Assembly (NCBI GenBank): GCA_017540585.1
Contig: JAFYAT010000079.1
Coordinates: forward strand, 1 to 36,990
Direction: 5' to 3'
Source: Bacteroidaceae bacterium
Lineage (GTDB): Bacteria; Bacteroidota; Bacteroidia; Bacteroidales; Bacteroidaceae
DNA: 36,990 nucleotides
Shown piece after piece: positions 4,196 to 16,547 of this stretch. Position numbers and translations under genes: made by a program. Each line of letters begins with the position of its first letter. Within the stretch, counting starts at the first letter, position 1. A model generated the notes under the pieces. That model did not search any database. It saw nothing but the letters and a program-made list of their open reading frames with translations, and had not been told where the DNA came from.

Positions 4196-5665
4196 ATGAT
4201 GCTCAAGCAGACAAAGATTGTCGCATCCATCTCCGATTTAAGATGCGAAGTTGACTTCATTCGTTCACTCTTCGAGGCTGGAATGAATGTAGTACGTATG
4301 AACACAGCCCACGGAACACGTGAAGGTATGGATAAGCTTATCCATAATGTACGTGAGGTAAGCAACCGTATCGCCATCCTTATCGACACAAAGGGTCCTG
4401 AGGTCCGTACAACAAGGATTGCAGGATTGGAAGACTCAGAACAGCTTCAGTTCCATATCGGTGACATCGTGAAGGTTGTAGGCAACCCTGATATCGAGAC
4501 TACTCGCGAGCAGATTGCCGTATCATACAAGAACTTCGTAGATGACCTCAAGGTAGGTTCTTACATCCTTATTGATGATGGTGAACTTGAGTTGTTCGTA
4601 CGCGAAAAGCATACTGACCACCTCGTATGTGAAGTACAGAACGAGGCTTCAATGGGTCACCGCAAGAGCGTGAACGTACCAGGTGTACGTATCAACCTCC
4701 CTTCACTCACAGACAAGGACAAGGCCAACATCAAGTATGCCATAGAGCGTGACATCGACTTCATCGCTCACTCATTCGTCCGCACAAAGCAGGACATCCT
4801 CGACATCAAGGAGATTCTTGACGCTTACGGTAGTGACATCAAGATTATCGCCAAGATTGAGAACCAGGAGGGCGTTGACAATATCGACGAGATTCTTGAG
4901 GTGGCAGATGGTGTAATGGTTGCACGTGGTGACCTTGGTATCGAGGTTCCACAGGAGCGCATCCCTGGTATCCAGCGCATCCTCATCAAGAAGTGCGTAC
5001 TTGCCAAGAAGCCTGTCATCGTGGCTACTCAGATGCTCCACACTATGATTAAGAATCCTCGTCCAACACGTGCCGAGGTAACAGATATCGCAAACGCTAT
5101 CTACTACCGTACAGATGCTATCATGCTCTCTGGTGAGACAGCATACGGCAAGTACCCAGTAGAGGCAGTACAGACAATGGCTAAGGTAGCTAAGCAGGCA
5201 GAGATAGACAAGCTCCCTGACAACGATATCAAGATTCCTCTCACAGAGAATACTGACGTTACAGCTTTCCTTGCCAAGCAGGCAGTAAAGGCTACTAACG
5301 TGATGCCTATCAAGGCTATCATCACAGACAGCTTCTCAGGAACAACAGCTCGCAACCTTGCAGCATTCCGCGGCAAGTACCCTGTACTCGCAATCTGTTA
5401 CAAGGAGAAGACAATGCGTCACCTTGCTCTCTCTTATGGAGTCGAGGCTATCTACATGCCAGAAAAGGCTAACGGTCAGGCATACTACTTTGCTGCTCTC
5501 CAGAAGCTCATGGACGACGGAGTACTCAAGGGTACAGACATGGTTGCATACCTCAGCAGTGGTAAGAAGGGAACAAAGACATCATTCCTTGAAATCAACA
5601 CTGTAGGCGATGTTCTCAAGGCAGGTCTTGACTACGTATTGCCAAACAGGAACAGGTATTTGTAG
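4196..5665 (+). CDS. pyk: Pyruvate kinase
   Basis: Converts phosphoenolpyruvate and ADP to pyruvate and ATP, the last step of glycolysis, in the cytoplasm. The N-terminus TKIVASIS followed by FEAGMNVVRMNTAHG is the usual first barrel segment, and LIDTKGPEVRT is the substrate/K+ binding segment. A beta domain interrupts the barrel at about 75-165. The active-site signature IIAKIENQEGVDNIDEI and MVARGDLGIEVP follow. The C-terminal domain starts near residue 355. The 489-residue length is normal. ATGATG doubles the start; the first ATG is used here. The gene is convergent with the radical SAM operon, and a large hairpin separates them. The stop codon merges with a GC-rich 3' repeat. Confidence 0.97.
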   Translation: MMLKQTKIVASISDLRCEVDFIRSLFEAGMNVVRMNTAHGTREGMDKLIHNVREVSNRIAILIDTKGPEVRTTRIAGLEDSEQLQFHIGDIVKVVGNPDIETTREQIAVSYKNFVDDLKVGSYILIDDGELELFVREKHTDHLVCEVQNEASMGHRKSVNVPGVRINLPSLTDKDKANIKYAIERDIDFIAHSFVRTKQDILDIKEILDAYGSDIKIIAKIENQEGVDNIDEILEVADGVMVARGDLGIEVPQERIPGIQRILIKKCVLAKKPVIVATQMLHTMIKNPRPTRAEVTDIANAIYYRTDAIMLSGETAYGKYPVEAVQTMAKVAKQAEIDKLPDNDIKIPLTENTDVTAFLAKQAVKATNVMPIKAIITDSFSGTTARNLAAFRGKYPVLAICYKEKTMRHLALSYGVEAIYMPEKANGQAYYFAALQKLMDDGVLKGTDMVAYLSSGKKGTKTSFLEINTVGDVLKAGLDYVLPNRNRYL

Positions 5666-5696
5666 CCCCCCAGCCCCCGAAGGGGGCGGCCTCCGG
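5664..5696 (+). repeat. GC-rich 3'-end repeat, copy 1
   Basis: AGCCCCCCAGCCCCCGAAGG followed by GGGCGGCCTCCGG starts inside the pyk stop codon. It contains a GCCCCC/GGGGGC hairpin. Copy 2 at 5801-5835 is its near-perfect inverse (pairing over about 33 bp) and copy 3 is at 15143-15176. Confidence 0.75.
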
Positions 5697-5721
5697 GTTC
5701 AGTCATTATAAATAAAATAAT

Positions 5722-5764
5722 AGAAGCAATAAATACTATAGCAACTATAGCGTTTATTGCTTCT
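5722..5764. terminator. Hairpin between convergent pyk and radical SAM genes
   Basis: AGAAGCAATAAA pairs with TTTATTGCTTCT, and the inner CTATAG pairs with CTATAG across a CAA loop, giving about 18 pairs of 20. A/T-rich flanks on both sides fit a bidirectional terminator, although the T tract is short. Confidence 0.6.
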
Positions 5765-5800
5765 AATTTATTGTAGTAACAAGCTTTCATCACACGTTAT

Positions 5801-5835
5801 CCGGATGGCCGCCCCCTTCGGGGGTTGGGGGGCTT
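5801..5835 (-). repeat. GC-rich 3'-end repeat, copy 2
   Basis: On the minus strand it reads AGCCCCCCAACCCCCGAAGG followed by GGGCGGCCATCCGG. It sits 16 nt after the stop of the radical SAM gene, in the same sense relative to that gene as copy 1 is to pyk. Confidence 0.75.
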
Positions 5836-5851: not shown

Positions 5852-6952
5852 CTACCTCTGCCACTTCTTCATCCTGCACATGATAAGTTCGTCGTTGTCT
5901 CCACGTTGATGCATTCCACCACCCTCGCAATAACGGAAGAAGGAGCAATCGGAACATGGCTCTTTCTTTGCCATCCACGAGTGGTCACGATACACTTGGA
6001 ACTTAGTGTTCCACACCTCCCATAGGTTATCGTGATAGATATTGCCTTGGTGGTAATCGCTACGAATACTTGAGCAAGCAGATATTGAGCCATCTATAAG
6101 GACGGAGACAACATTAATTCCTGCTATGCAATTGAAGAAATGACCTCGTGACTCATTCTCGTAAGCCCCAAGAAAACCTTCACAACCGAAATAGCAAAGC
6201 ATAGATGTCTTGTCTGCAATCTTATCCAACCTTTTCTGCTTAATGAACTCCATAAGCTGTTCAAACTCTTCATCCGTGATAATCATATCCGGATCCTTAC
6301 GGGCACGTCCCATAGGGAAGATGGAGAGGAGACGCCAACGAGGTACACCCTCTGCCTCAAGTGCAGCGAATATCTTGTCAAGCGACTTGATGTTACGACG
6401 GTTTACACAAGTATCCACATCCCACGTGAGTCCTGTAGTATGGCAAAGAAGACGGATAGCATTCCATGTCCTTGCAAAACTGCCCTTTCTGCCTCGCATC
6501 CAGTCATGGTCATCCTCCAGTCCGTCAAGACTTATCGTCAGGCTTCGCATACCAGCTGCAAGGAGTGAACGAAGACGAGCCTCATCAAGCAACCAGCCGT
6601 TTGTGACAAGTCCCCAGTTATATCCACGCTTCACCACTTCACGACCGACATCCTCTATATCCTTACGTACAAGCGGCTCACCTCCGGTTATGACGATAAG
6701 CACTTCACTTGTATTGACATTAGGTGTAATGGTGTCGAGTGCCTTGAGGAAATCCTCCGCAGGCATATCCTCATGAAGGGCAGTAGCCGTCTTACAGTCG
6801 CTACCACAATGGCGACACTGGAGGTTGCAACGCAAGGTACACTCCCAGAACACCTGTTTTATCGGGTGCTGTTTCTTGTTGATGTTACGCATCTGACGGA
6901 ACACCTCCAGTTGCAACCGCTTCCTCAGTCCTATTTTTCTTTCAGATATCAT
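5852..6952 (-). CDS. Radical SAM/SPASM enzyme of an rSAM/lipoprotein system
   Basis: This 366-residue protein has the radical SAM cluster motif CNLQCRHC (Cys42, Cys46, Cys49; another Cys at 38), the SAM-binding TGGEPL motif (near residue 90) and a C-terminal cysteine-rich SPASM-type region (FNCIAG, ISACSS, EPCSDCSFFRYC, MCRM). That region should hold auxiliary Fe-S clusters, as in peptide-modifying enzymes such as anSME and RiPP maturases. Its start codon overlaps the stop of the preceding lipoprotein gene (TAATG), so translation is probably coupled. The context matches the Bacteroidetes family named 'radical SAM enzyme, rSAM/lipoprotein system', whose chemistry is not established to my knowledge. 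Inference: it modifies one or both neighbouring lipoproteins before export. Confidence 0.88.
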   Translation of the reverse strand: MISERKIGLRKRLQLEVFRQMRNINKKQHPIKQVFWECTLRCNLQCRHCGSDCKTATALHEDMPAEDFLKALDTITPNVNTSEVLIVITGGEPLVRKDIEDVGREVVKRGYNWGLVTNGWLLDEARLRSLLAAGMRSLTISLDGLEDDHDWMRGRKGSFARTWNAIRLLCHTTGLTWDVDTCVNRRNIKSLDKIFAALEAEGVPRWRLLSIFPMGRARKDPDMIITDEEFEQLMEFIKQKRLDKIADKTSMLCYFGCEGFLGAYENESRGHFFNCIAGINVVSVLIDGSISACSSIRSDYHQGNIYHDNLWEVWNTKFQVYRDHSWMAKKEPCSDCSFFRYCEGGGMHQRGDNDELIMCRMKKWQR

Positions 6953-7446
6953 TATTTTGCTTCGCTTGCTTTCTTATGAAGGGTGAAGTTAGCCGTAGCT
7001 GTAGCCTTGAACTTATCCGTAGCCAAGCTGTCCAACTTCACGTCAACGTACATGGTATCATTCTCATACACGCCCGACTTGTCGGAAGCAATAACCTGCA
7101 GTTGTTTGAATGTCTCGCTTACGCTACTATTGCCAATCTTTTCGATACGTGAGTTTGAGAAGTACTTGCCATTACCGTCAGATGCCACATTTTCCACGCC
7201 TCTAACATTATAATAATTAACATCAGTAGGGAAAGACACTACTTGCACATTAGGCACAGGTTCGCCTTCGGTATTAAGTACAAGACCAGTCGTCTCACTT
7301 AGAATCTCAGCTGTAGGAGAAGGCGTTCCATACATAACTGCTTCAGATTTCTCAGAATCACAACCAGTAACGCCCATCAAAGCGAGCAGGCATCCCAAAA
7401 CACGTGTCAGTTTTGACAACAGATAGTTGTTAAGTTTTTTTGTCAT
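6952..7446 (-). CDS. Radical SAM-associated putative lipoprotein (second of two)
   Basis: This 164-residue protein has a lipobox GVTGC (Cys29) after a hydrophobic segment, then a short immunoglobulin/transthyretin-like region (GLVLNTEGEPVPNVQVVSFP) resembling carboxypeptidase-regulatory-like folds. It is a paralogue of the protein encoded just upstream (7477-8016). They share the TKxLNN start, the LYG/MYGTP segment after the lipobox, GVYENDTxYxD, and the tail TATANFTLHKK. It overlaps the radical SAM gene by one base and is the likely substrate or partner of that enzyme. An outer-membrane location is inferred from the lipobox. Confidence 0.82.
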   Translation of the reverse strand: MTKKLNNYLLSKLTRVLGCLLALMGVTGCDSEKSEAVMYGTPSPTAEILSETTGLVLNTEGEPVPNVQVVSFPTDVNYYNVRGVENVASDGNGKYFSNSRIEKIGNSSVSETFKQLQVIASDKSGVYENDTMYVDVKLDSLATDKFKATATANFTLHKKASEAK

Positions 7447-7476
7447 AATTTTATAATGTTTATAATGTGTTTATTG

Positions 7477-8016
7477 TTAATTCTTTTTCTTGTGAAGAGT
7501 GAAGTTTGCTGTAGCAGTTGAAGTATAGTTAAAATGTTCATCTCCATCCAACCTATCCAACGCATAATCTATATATAATGTATCATTCTCATACACGCCT
7601 GTACTATCAGTAGCAATAGCCATATATGAAGGGAAATAGTTCTTAAAGCCAGCCACATCCGTACCTTCAGGCATGCCATAAAAATACAAGACAAAACTTT
7701 TATATTTTCCGTCTTGACCTGTAACTCCAGTACTACTAGTTGCGATTCCAAGTGTTCCATCTTGTTTTACGAGACCAACACGAACATTGATATTTTCGAT
7801 TGGATTTCCGATAGAATCAGTCACAAGACCTGCGACCTCCCCCTTCACAGCATAATCAGCAGTAGGAACACCATAAAGACATACAGCCCTTTTAGGATCC
7901 CATTCTTTTTCTTCTTCGTCTCCACAACTTGTGAATCCGAGCACAACAAGGACAGCACCAAGGAAAGACATAACCTTGTTTAATACATAGTCATTGTTAA
8001 GAATTTTTGTAATCAT
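7477..8016 (-). CDS. Radical SAM-associated putative lipoprotein (first of two)
   Basis: The start is set at 8016 (MITKILNN), not at the upstream in-frame ATG at 8178. This start matches the paralogue at 6952-7446, gives a proper lipoprotein signal (GFTSC, Cys31), and lies downstream of the promoter at 8053-8082. The 179-residue protein has an acidic linker (DEEEKEWD), CLYGVPTADY, a domain with GLVTDSIGNPIENINVRVG, and the conserved end GVYENDTLYIDYALDRL...TATANFTLHKK. First gene of a three-gene operon; 30 nt separate it from the next gene. Function is unknown beyond association with the radical SAM enzyme. Confidence 0.82.
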   Translation of the reverse strand: MITKILNNDYVLNKVMSFLGAVLVVLGFTSCGDEEEKEWDPKRAVCLYGVPTADYAVKGEVAGLVTDSIGNPIENINVRVGLVKQDGTLGIATSSTGVTGQDGKYKSFVLYFYGMPEGTDVAGFKNYFPSYMAIATDSTGVYENDTLYIDYALDRLDGDEHFNYTSTATANFTLHKKKN

Positions 8017-8052: not shown

Positions 8053-8082
8053 CAAATGTACAACTTTAGTTTGAAATGGCAA
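8053..8082 (-). promoter_or_regulatory. Promoter of the rSAM/lipoprotein operon
   Basis: TTG (8080-8082), a 19-nt spacer and TACATTTG (8053-8060) on the minus strand fit the Bacteroidetes consensus. It lies inside the longer reading frame that starts at 8178, which rules out that upstream start. Confidence 0.8.
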
Positions 8083-8170: not shown

Positions 8171-9748
8171 TTATCCAACAGTTTCGATTTCTTCTGTCAT
8201 GTTAATCTCATTGCCTTTGTTATCCTTGAACTTGTACTGAAGGAATCCCAAAGACTGGTCAGCAATGACTTTCAAACCGAAACCATATTTCATCTTCCAT
8301 CTGAACTTGAGGCTGAAGAGTCCCTTGTTGATGTAAGCGGAAACGTATGGATGGACATAGAGCTTGAATTTCTTCATTCCAAGATTATTGACGACATAGT
8401 CTATCTTGTTCTCCAGCGTGTCTGTAAAGAGGATTGACGACTTGATTGTTCCCTTGCCGAAACATGTAGGACAAGTCTCCTCCACATGGACATCCATAGC
8501 CGGGCGCACTCTCTGACGGGTAATCTGCATGAGACCAAATTTGCTGAGAGGTAGAATGTTGTGCCTTGCACGATCATTCTTCATCAACTCCGTCATGTGC
8601 TCATAGAGCTTCTGTCTGTGCTCTGCCGAATCCATGTCGATAAAGTCAACCACAATGATACCTCCCATGTCTCGGAGTCGAAGCTGGCGAGCCAACTCTT
8701 CGGCTGCACCCATGTTCACCTCAAATGCGTTGGCTTCCTGACCGTCAACGCCACGTGAACGATTACCACTGTTCACATCGACCACATGGAGGGCTTCGGT
8801 ATGCTCAATCACGAGATAAGCACCTCGCTTGTAACTTACAGCCTTGCCCAGTCCTGACTTTATCTGTTTGGTGACAGAGAAATTGTCGAATATCGGAACC
8901 TCTCCCTTGTAGAGCTTTACTATGTTCTCTCTCTCTGGAGCAATGAGCGACACATATTTCTTTACTTCCTTGTACACCTCTGCATTGTTCACATGAATGC
9001 TTTCGTATGAGGGATTGAAGAGGTCACGTAGCATTGATACTGTTCTTCCCGTCTCTTCGTGTACGAGTACTGGGAGGTCTGTGCTCTGCTGTATCTTGTT
9101 GATAGCATCATTCCAGTTTTCTATCAGCACAGACAACTCGTTGTTCAGTTCAGCCGCCCTCTTTCCTTCAGCCACCGTACGCACAATCACACCAAACTGA
9201 CGTGGCTTGATGCTCTGGATGAGCTGTTTCAGTCTTGTTCTTTCTTCCTTGGACTTAATCTTGGATGATACGGATACCTTGTCTGTAAAAGGTATAAGAA
9301 CAAGGAAACGTCCAGCAAAGGATATCTCTCCCGTAAGTCGTGGTCCTTTGGTGTTAATCGGTTCCTTAGTGATTTGTACCATCACCTCCTGTCCTACTTC
9401 AAGAACATTCTGTATGCTTCCTCCTTTCTCAAGGTCTGGCTGCTTGCCTGCCTTGTGCATAGGAGCAAGTTTTTTCTTGTCGCTTGCAACTTGTCTCACA
9501 TATTTCTCGAGAGAGAGAAACTGTGTTCCTAAATCCTGGTAGTGCAGAAATGCCTCACGCTCATGACCGACATCAACGAAACATGCATTAAGCGCAGGCA
9601 TGATTTTCTTTACCTTTCCTGCGTAGATGTTGCCCACGGAGAACTTGGAGTCCTGACCTTCTTTCTGGAATTCCACCAGTCTCTGGTCTTCAAGGAGTGC
9701 AATGGTTACTTCCTTGGGCTGAACGTCGATAATAAGTTCGCTTGTCAT
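8171..9748 (-). CDS. rng: Ribonuclease E/G family endoribonuclease
   Basis: Single-strand-specific endoribonuclease of the Rne/Rng family, acting in rRNA and mRNA processing in the cytoplasm. At 525 residues it is G-type, without the long E. coli RNase E tail. The N-terminal segment (TSELIIDVQP...VEF) leads to an S1-like RNA-binding domain (about 35-130: GNIYAGKVKKIMPALNACFVDVG). The catalytic DNase I-like region has GGIIVVDFIDMD, with Mg2+-binding Asp residues, and CPTCFGKG is the Zn-link tetramer motif. It may share a transcript with the small COX24-like gene upstream: 154 nt lie between them with no evident terminator. Confidence 0.95.
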   Translation of the reverse strand: MTSELIIDVQPKEVTIALLEDQRLVEFQKEGQDSKFSVGNIYAGKVKKIMPALNACFVDVGHEREAFLHYQDLGTQFLSLEKYVRQVASDKKKLAPMHKAGKQPDLEKGGSIQNVLEVGQEVMVQITKEPINTKGPRLTGEISFAGRFLVLIPFTDKVSVSSKIKSKEERTRLKQLIQSIKPRQFGVIVRTVAEGKRAAELNNELSVLIENWNDAINKIQQSTDLPVLVHEETGRTVSMLRDLFNPSYESIHVNNAEVYKEVKKYVSLIAPERENIVKLYKGEVPIFDNFSVTKQIKSGLGKAVSYKRGAYLVIEHTEALHVVDVNSGNRSRGVDGQEANAFEVNMGAAEELARQLRLRDMGGIIVVDFIDMDSAEHRQKLYEHMTELMKNDRARHNILPLSKFGLMQITRQRVRPAMDVHVEETCPTCFGKGTIKSSILFTDTLENKIDYVVNNLGMKKFKLYVHPYVSAYINKGLFSLKFRWKMKYGFGLKVIADQSLGFLQYKFKDNKGNEINMTEEIETVG

Positions 9749-15176: not shown

Positions 15177-16547
15177 TTACTGCTCAACTACAGAGAGACG
15201 ATTGAAATAGAAGCCAGCCTCAAGACGTGCACCGAGAGAGACAGTACCAGTCTTGCTGTCATACACATAGATACGTGGCGAACCATACTTAGCTTCTTCC
15301 GGATTAACTCCGATATATGCCTTGCCTCCAAGTGTCGCAACACGGTCTGTGAAAGAGCCGCATGATGCAGGAAGTGTAGCACCATCGTATGAAAGCTCTG
15401 TATATGTATTTGACGCAATATCATAGATATAATAGAAGCTGTTGAAACTATTCTGTCCCCAACCACCTTCGTAGATAATATTCTCTGCTACGAGACCAGC
15501 CTTAGCAGGATTAGTTACATAGAGCACACACTTATTGTTACCGATGTAATCAGCTGTAAGTATCTTACCGAAAGCCTCTTCATTGATTCCAAGGTAAGAA
15601 GCATCAGCTTCCATCTTCTTGTCATTAACACGGACAAGTGAGCCATACTGTTGTGAGTCTTTCTCTGATTCAGGTATCTGAGTACCACAGGCAATGTAGA
15701 GATTCTGGTTGTCATCAAAGAACATCTTGTCCTGCTGAAGTTCTCCGTATGCTGTTCCAGCCATTTCATCTACACGAGTCTCATGATATACATTCTTGAT
15801 TTGCATCGTTGTAGCATCGACAAAAGCAATGAAGAATCCCTTCACAGGCTTTGTACTTGCATCAGTATAGCAATAGATGATTGTGTTGTCTGACTTACGG
15901 TATGTAGCAAGACCACTTGTACAGAATGCATTTACATCCTCATTGCAATACTTCTTAGTAGCAGCAGTAAGGTCAAGTTTACCCTCTGTCTTGACACTAA
16001 GAGCATCACCATCAACAAGTTTAGTCCACATAATCTCATTATCACTATATTTTGACTTACGGTTCACACTACGGTTTGCTCCAATGAAGACAAGGGTGTC
16101 GTTTGCAATCCACGCATGAGTATATTGACGTTCGAGGAATGAGTTGGTTGCAAACTCATGACGTGCAACAGGCTCAACGCCAGTATTTGATACGGTATAT
16201 TTTCCAAAATAAGTATTCTTCAGAGGTGAAGCCTCATAGTAATACTTACCCTTGATAATTGATTCTGCATTGATATCATTAGAAACATCTGCTCCGATAC
16301 CCTTCAGAGTGATTTCAGCATCAGGATTAGATAATTCATCTATTGACACACTACGAATAAGAGTAGATGTTACACCTGTTGATGACATACCCGTAGTTGC
16401 ACCAACGCTCACGAGCAAGTCAAAATGATATGACTCAACCGGGTCAGTGACATGATTAGGAGTGTCATCGTCCTCAGAACAAGACACAAAGCCTGTGCCA
16501 ATACTCATTGCAGCAAAGGCTGCAAACATGTACTTTAATGTTTTCAT
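15177..16547 (-). CDS. DUF4374 surface lipoprotein, TonB-receptor partner
   Basis: This 456-residue protein has a lipobox GFVSC (Cys23) followed by SEDDD, an acidic tail of the kind linked to surface export of Bacteroidetes lipoproteins. The repeated blade-like strands (FIAFVDATTMQIKNVY, LYIACGTQIP, FYYIYDIASNTYTEL, PRIYVYDSKTGTV) suggest a beta-propeller, in line with DUF4374. As I recall, family members such as Bacteroides XusB bind siderophores with a TonB receptor. Here the gene is second in an operon whose leader is a cobalamin riboswitch, so a role in capturing a corrinoid, analogous to BtuG, is more likely. It lies 75 nt after the receptor gene. No PepSY gene follows. Confidence 0.83.
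   Translation of the reverse strand: MKTLKYMFAAFAAMSIGTGFVSCSEDDDTPNHVTDPVESYHFDLLVSVGATTGMSSTGVTSTLIRSVSIDELSNPDAEITLKGIGADVSNDINAESIIKGKYYYEASPLKNTYFGKYTVSNTGVEPVARHEFATNSFLERQYTHAWIANDTLVFIGANRSVNRKSKYSDNEIMWTKLVDGDALSVKTEGKLDLTAATKKYCNEDVNAFCTSGLATYRKSDNTIIYCYTDASTKPVKGFFIAFVDATTMQIKNVYHETRVDEMAGTAYGELQQDKMFFDDNQNLYIACGTQIPESEKDSQQYGSLVRVNDKKMEADASYLGINEEAFGKILTADYIGNNKCVLYVTNPAKAGLVAENIIYEGGWGQNSFNSFYYIYDIASNTYTELSYDGATLPASCGSFTDRVATLGGKAYIGVNPEEAKYGSPRIYVYDSKTGTVSLGARLEAGFYFNRLSVVEQ

Follow-up and report, generated by a model that had tools for sequence, protein, structure and literature searches.

Radical SAM/SPASM enzymes of family TIGR04133 are mostly encoded beside small proteins whose recurring feature is a Tyr-Gly motif, usually Y-G-x-P, and not one lipoprotein fold. 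We propose that these enzymes are splicease-like, working without a RiPP leader or a detected RRE. Very probably the enzyme acts at XYG, which we infer to be the modified site, and by analogy with known spliceases we give a rough probability of 0.57 to the reaction being tyramine excision. The pairing itself is already catalogued in NCBIfam (TIGR04133/TIGR04134, rSAM_w_lipo/lipo_with_rSAM), with no function named; the Tyr-Gly motif as the recurring partner element is new here. The proposal gives this catalogued, functionless pair a chemistry and a target residue, and it predicts one exact, testable mass change at one residue.

A cassette of two lipoproteins and one enzyme

The cassette lies on the minus strand of the window, the whole stretch of 36,990 nucleotides analysed here, in the order lipoprotein A, lipoprotein B, enzyme, with lipoprotein B starting 30 nt downstream of A (Table 1). 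The earlier note had described two paralogous small lipoproteins ahead of a radical SAM/SPASM gene, with a TAATG overlap and a promoter of their own, and this description is borne out. The coordinates are exact, both lipoproteins exceed the TIGR04134 cut-off of 39.8 bits (A 58.0, B 44.5), and the overlap consists of the lipoprotein B stop (TAA, 6954-6952) and the enzyme start (ATG, 6952-6950), which share the single base 6952. The promoter candidate follows what we take to be the Bacteroides -33/-7 pattern, of which there are 6 matches across the whole window against 0.68 expected; a scan for sigma-70-type promoters gave no clear excess (8 sites against 5.4 expected). A longer, TTG-started frame of lipoprotein A, reaching 8178, is also present. 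Because the flanking genes, judged by reading the sequence, look like RNase G (8171-9748, minus) and pyruvate kinase (4196-5665, plus), the cassette seems to stand alone.

Table 1 Features of the cassette in the window
Feature	Position	Strand	Remark
Radical SAM/SPASM enzyme, TIGR04133, 366 aa	5852-6952	minus	Proposed splicease-like enzyme
Radical SAM cluster motif C42-x3-C46-x2-C49, then GSDC	6806-6829	minus	Coordinates derived from codon positions
SPASM region, C275 to C359	5876-6130	minus	Pfam SPASM residues 275-336 plus invariant cysteines
Lipoprotein B, TIGR04134, 164 aa	6952-7446	minus	TAATG overlap with enzyme gene
M38-Y39-G40-T41-P42 of lipoprotein B	7321-7335	minus	Proposed modification site, from motif statistics
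Lipoprotein A, TIGR04134, 179 aa, lipobox Cys31	7477-8016	minus	Start taken as ATG at 8016
L47-Y48-G49-V50-P51 of lipoprotein A	7864-7878	minus	Proposed modification site, linker between lipid anchor and domain
F112-Y113-G114-M115-P116, second YGxP of lipoprotein A	7669-7683	minus	End of predicted strand
Bacteroides-type promoter TTG-N19-TACATTTG	8053-8082	minus	Upstream of lipoprotein A

Two further elements of the window were noted. The pyruvate-kinase-like and enzyme genes converge, and the DNA separating them holds a MITE- or REP-like element with 28-nt inverted repeats at 5664-5691 and 5807-5834 (96% complementary, 115 nt apart) and an A+T-rich inner hairpin at 5714-5772 (28-nt inverted repeat, 82%). 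Positions 15177-16547 encode a 456-aa lipoprotein-like protein of another kind with KYGSP near its C-terminus (residue 420), probably by chance, though an unlinked substrate is a possibility.

The motif reads MYGTP in lipoprotein B and LYGVP in lipoprotein A. Lipoprotein A is predicted to form a transthyretin-like β-sandwich from residue 56, and VIA-align ranks small transthyretin-like domains, among others. LYGVP falls in a low-confidence linker after Cys31 (pLDDT about 60 for residues 41-50). The second YGxP, FYGMP, is probably not a modification site. An intradiol dioxygenase function, suggested by the top Foldseek matches, was rejected given an rmsd of about 8-10. Transthyretin-like domains also occur as CarboxypepD_reg and SusC NTE domains, from which the window lipoprotein differs in being free-standing with an XYG linker; the fold that the model appears to share with them would not indicate a function. 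The same tandem lipoprotein pair is found in another genome of the genus (G616).

Family and predicted structure of the enzyme

The window enzyme scores 506.8 bits against TIGR04133 (curated cut-off 425) and is thus a member of that family. Against TIGR04103 (nif11-class maturase 3), which we take to be the family of the splicease PlpX, it reaches 127.8 bits, far under the cut-off of 725, and it scores about as high against other SPASM families (TIGR04053 128.6, TIGR04545 127.8 bits). In a 39-row alignment, C42, C46 and C49 of the CX3CX2C motif are invariant, as are C275, C293, C333, C336, C342 and C359 of the SPASM region. The AlphaFold2 model (mean pLDDT 92.8) comprises an N-terminal helix, a barrel and the SPASM region; no RRE-like domain was seen in it, and its top Foldseek matches are SkfB, anSME and SuiB.

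An unrooted 65-row tree resolves three separate, well-supported groups: TIGR04133 with Bacillota and Actinomycetota relatives, a putative splicease group, and a heme/Nir/Mft group. Conserved columns do not favour the spliceases, since TIGR04133 shares 2 with the splicease group only and 3 with the heme group only, and 5 are common to the splicease and heme groups against TIGR04133. With similar scores to heme-type families and an unrooted tree, the enzyme sequence does not decide kinship with the spliceases.

The eight Bacillota and Actinomycetota relatives (L191, L192, L193, L195, L196, L198, L199, L200) have 32-37% identity and neighbour TIGR04133 in the tree, with values of 100/99 for the branch joining both and 92/64 for the relatives as a group. 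Scans of three of them (L191, L196 and L199) gave scores under the TIGR04133 cut-off, and VYGPP occurs in lipobox proteins of 5 of the 8.

Enzyme and lipoproteins co-occur across genomes

We sampled 295 genomes from the order and found an enzyme match in 69 (E<=1e-60; 61 over the cut-off) and a TIGR04134 match in 40 (E<=1e-8). The co-occurrence claimed in the earlier note holds, as the enzyme is present in all but one of these 40 genomes (39) and lipoproteins without it are not frequent; the sole exception, G227, has a TIGR04134 protein with QYGA and no enzyme match at E<=1e-60. The enzyme is rare more widely, with matches in only 2 genomes, one of them that of the window, out of 296 sampled from the whole phylum. 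Relatives also occur in a Treponema plasmid and in Bacillota. On the Treponema saccharophilum plasmid, pTS1, the enzyme-lipoprotein pair adjoins a Mpi-type DNA invertase gene and is possibly a trace of transfer between phyla.

The converse pairing, from enzyme to TIGR04134, looked loose, and the neighbourhoods of the enzyme genes were therefore examined. In a search of 61 relative genomes (37 of the window's genus including its own, 24 of the order), 28 had the enzyme and 6 a TIGR04134 match (E<=1e-6).

A Tyr-Gly motif recurs in the adjacent partners

Three sets of enzymes were used. The order set comprises 84 enzyme genes from the 295 sampled genomes. The named set comprises 73 enzymes: 69 loci of a named-genome scan of 80 loci, L215 and three plasmid loci. 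Loci L203-L214 of that scan, other SPASM families at 26-29% identity, were left out except L208 (44% identity), which has YGGP and is counted, as is the L218 partner. The genus set comprises 20 loci: besides the window's own, 21 genomes of the genus have the enzyme, and of these the contig-cut G620 was left out; only G616 and G617 among these 20 have a TIGR04134 match. ORFs counted as adjacent if they ended at most 60 nt inside the enzyme gene and at most 250 nt upstream of its start; they were not chosen for their motif, and lipoboxes were called by a home-made rule that makes some false calls (e.g. L109 at d511).

An adjacent lipobox ORF was found at 71 of the 84 order-set enzymes, with YG at 68 and YGxP at 65 of those 71; counted by ORF, YGxP is present in 67/75 against 1.14 expected after shuffling. 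The named set gave a closely similar picture (lipobox ORF at 56/73 enzymes, YG at 55/56, YGxP at 49/56; by ORF 50/57 against 1.14 expected). All 16 genus-set loci with such an ORF, out of 20 and with some near copies among them, have YGxP (by ORF 17/17 against 0.35). Clustering the combined 177 enzymes at 80% identity left 139, with 7 clusters mixing sets; a species may thus be represented in more than one of the three sets. A lipobox ORF lies directly upstream at 111 of the 139, with YG at 108 and YGxP at 99 of the 111, and YGxP occurs in 102 of 116 adjacent lipobox ORFs, against 2.05 expected after shuffling. The invariance of YGP in one alignment (A2) was discounted as evidence because its rows had been chosen for YGxP.

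We consider it highly improbable that YGxP is a structural or surface-sorting signal and that the enzyme has another substrate. Lipoprotein export signals in Bacteroidota lie soon after the lipobox, and YGxP resembles them in position, but it is present in 0/101 other lipobox ORFs of the order-set loci (many such frames probably not being genes) and is absent from a lipoprotein of related sequence that the window's genome encodes at another place (L004; a TIGR04134 score of 21.4 bits, under the cut-off). Moreover, partners exported via a signal-peptidase-I-like leader keep it.

The earlier note had regarded the two tandem substrates as what makes the window's version informative. Tandem substrates are not rare: within 2.5 kb upstream, 2-4 YGxP lipoproteins were found at 11/84 enzymes of the order set and at 11/72 of the named set (the tandem count and the count of 184 YGxP sites below use 72 named-set enzymes, not 73). 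At L081 (5375-7514), a single enzyme is preceded by a tandem row of six YG proteins of 71 to 153 aa, of which five have a lipobox and the other has a signal-peptidase-I-like AQYGAP start.

Partner kinds and exceptions

Most enzymes have a small exported protein beside them, which may be a domain protein of ~95-165 mature residues (transthyretin-like in some cases), a charged repeat protein or a mini-lipoprotein with 22-45 residues when mature; some partners lack a lipobox. Y and G recur in the motif, and X can be C, E, M, K, V, L or another residue. The shortest mature lipopeptides, of 22-23 residues (L068, L041), have little in common but Cys, Tyr, Gly and (x)Pro.

These features bear on whether YGxP might be a docking motif only, with the modified residue elsewhere, for instance the lipobox Cys. 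That Cys is itself residue X in 38 of 184 YGxP sites, which brings the Cys near YG in many partners. YG is nevertheless kept in some partners without a lipobox (L091 and L119, both AQYGAP, and L168, L169, L173, L178 and L215), and the shortest partners share almost nothing else, which makes docking alone highly improbable. The recurrence of the motif, also in some neighbours that are not lipoproteins, points to specific chemistry.

Enzymes without an adjacent upstream partner were inspected individually. The order set has 13 that lack an upstream YG lipoprotein: at L091 and L119 the AQYGAP protein lies downstream, L121, L069 and L049 are at contig edges, L089 is near a run of N, and L053, L064 and L075 are outliers at 155-178 bits. 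No YG partner was seen near the enzyme in the neighbourhoods of L046, L057, L061, L089 and L092. In the named set, a YG protein lies no further than about 2.5 kb from eleven more enzymes (L141, L163, L168, L169, L173, L178, L190, L191, L192, L215, L230), picked by eye and hence weaker evidence, and none was near the enzyme at L150, L164, L165, L167, L176 and L193, nor at L202, where the enzyme is contig-cut. The genus set has four loci without an adjacent lipobox ORF: L246 is at a contig edge, at L241 the opposite strand bears a TIGR04134 match at a distance of about 2.9 kb, and L253 and L256 have no YG partner near the enzyme. In the lipoproteins adjacent to the enzyme at L085 and L110, CYA takes the place of the usual CYG. 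Fifteen unlinked, downstream or far-upstream TIGR04134 places were also picked by hand; YG is kept in 14, several without P, and lacking at L080. The L168 partner is a 182-aa protein (MNKDNKRRK...) downstream of the enzyme, without a lipobox, in which MYGVKPVYGP is followed by what looks by eye like an acyl-carrier-protein-like tail.

Comparison with known splicing systems

NCBIfam defines the partner by lipoprotein family, whereas here it is XYG that recurs, also in partners missed by TIGR04134. PlpXY excises tyramine (C8H9NO) at XYG, with MYG and LYG as natural sites; PIRPGYGLPI, which contains a YGxP, is present in the two FtsZ variants that were spliced, most FtsZ tag insertions failed, and another splicease tag reads GYGVV, so YGxP is not universal among splicease tags (PMC10533398). 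PlpX is a SPASM radical SAM enzyme (IPR026482) with an RRE partner protein, PlpY, and the PlpX/PlpY precursors have Nif11 or nitrile-hydratase-like leaders (PMC11002830). The TIGR04133 systems resemble PlpXY in placing a SPASM radical SAM enzyme beside small XYG substrates, as seen in MYG and LYG of the window and in the family counts. They differ in lacking a Nif11/NHLP leader and in their low sequence similarity, and no conserved small partner was found; most of their substrates, moreover, are lipoproteins, of which many contain a folded domain.

In Nostoc sp. C057, the Nif11 precursor at a locus annotated TIGR04103 ends in ALYGLPPELF. Small ORFs downstream of the enzyme at 156 loci included no conserved partner, one group recurring in 3 loci only, and none matched a 71-aa Nostoc protein whose PlpY-like identity is a guess. 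The search for an RRE protein covered the TIGR04133 operons and found neither a separate nor a fused one. The TIGR03913, GDL motif (DUF1843) maturases also have small YG peptides beside the enzyme (L129, L220-L222), in Azospirillum, Aureibacter and one further genome. These YG peptides are presumably spliced, and they differ from the partners described here in being about 60 residues long. The L129 enzyme has 26% identity to the window enzyme over 325 columns.

Proposed chemistry and its meaning

Splicing is our best guess on three grounds: the motif itself, the variability of residue X and the existence of very short partners. A reaction that keeps X and removes Tyr would be expected to show this pattern of a variable X next to recurrent Y and G. 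The cytoplasmic enzyme would act on XYG, usually XYGxP, of both prelipoproteins before Sec export and lipidation, and splicing would cut the tyrosine piece (tyramine) out of the lipoprotein backbone. Modification before export is the natural reading, because the enzyme, by reading, has no signal peptide. After export, the lipoprotein on the cell surface would carry an electrophilic ketoamide in its linker, beside the lipid anchor.

Other radical chemistry at the same Tyr-Gly site, such as a Tyr-to-neighbour crosslink (three-residue cyclophane), hydroxylation or epimerisation, is the more serious alternative, if a rather unlikely one. The chemistry of SPASM enzymes is varied, and sequence does not group TIGR04133 with the spliceases. 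To our knowledge, however, spliceases are the only enzymes for which XYG is a defining motif. Linking Tyr to the third residue in a cyclophane (triceptide) needs a β-carbon there, and that residue is Gly in 6 of the 184 YGxP sites, the β-carbon being present at the other 178, including both window sites; a cyclophane would also leave Gly at position 2 unexplained.

If tyramine excision is correct, backbone splicing would be a gut-bacterial lipoprotein modification that needs no RiPP leader, and might serve to introduce ketoamides into proteins. PMC11117315 and PMC10373908, citing Scott et al., describe products of splicing that inhibit proteases, which invites a speculative reading as surface-tethered inhibitors. 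We regard it as unlikely, though worth stating, that this anaerobe enzyme family splices tyramine from surface lipoproteins to make membrane-tethered ketoamide traps that inhibit proteases. Speculatively, X would then occupy P1 (as Lys, Glu, Met, Val or Leu) in a reversible covalent inhibitor, the targets could be gut or competitor proteases, and the partners, from transthyretin-like domains to ~22-residue lipopeptides, might be viewed as lipidated RiPPs on the producer cell.

In full-text literature we found no paper on TIGR04133 with radical SAM, TIGR04134 or rSAM_w_lipo, and among the matches listed for tyramine/XYG, spliceotide and radical SAM plus lipoprotein the pair was absent from titles and the starts of abstracts. 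Scott et al. 2022 (Chem 8:2659) predicted 939 systems, according to PMC10533398, and the TIGR04133 family may already be within that splicease set. As a separate observation, an Agathobacter rectalis plasmid (L219) encodes, near elongation factor genes, a SPASM enzyme that groups with splicease-type enzymes, and 81 nt upstream of it lies an unannotated 68-aa ORF ending VMYGTGVRM.
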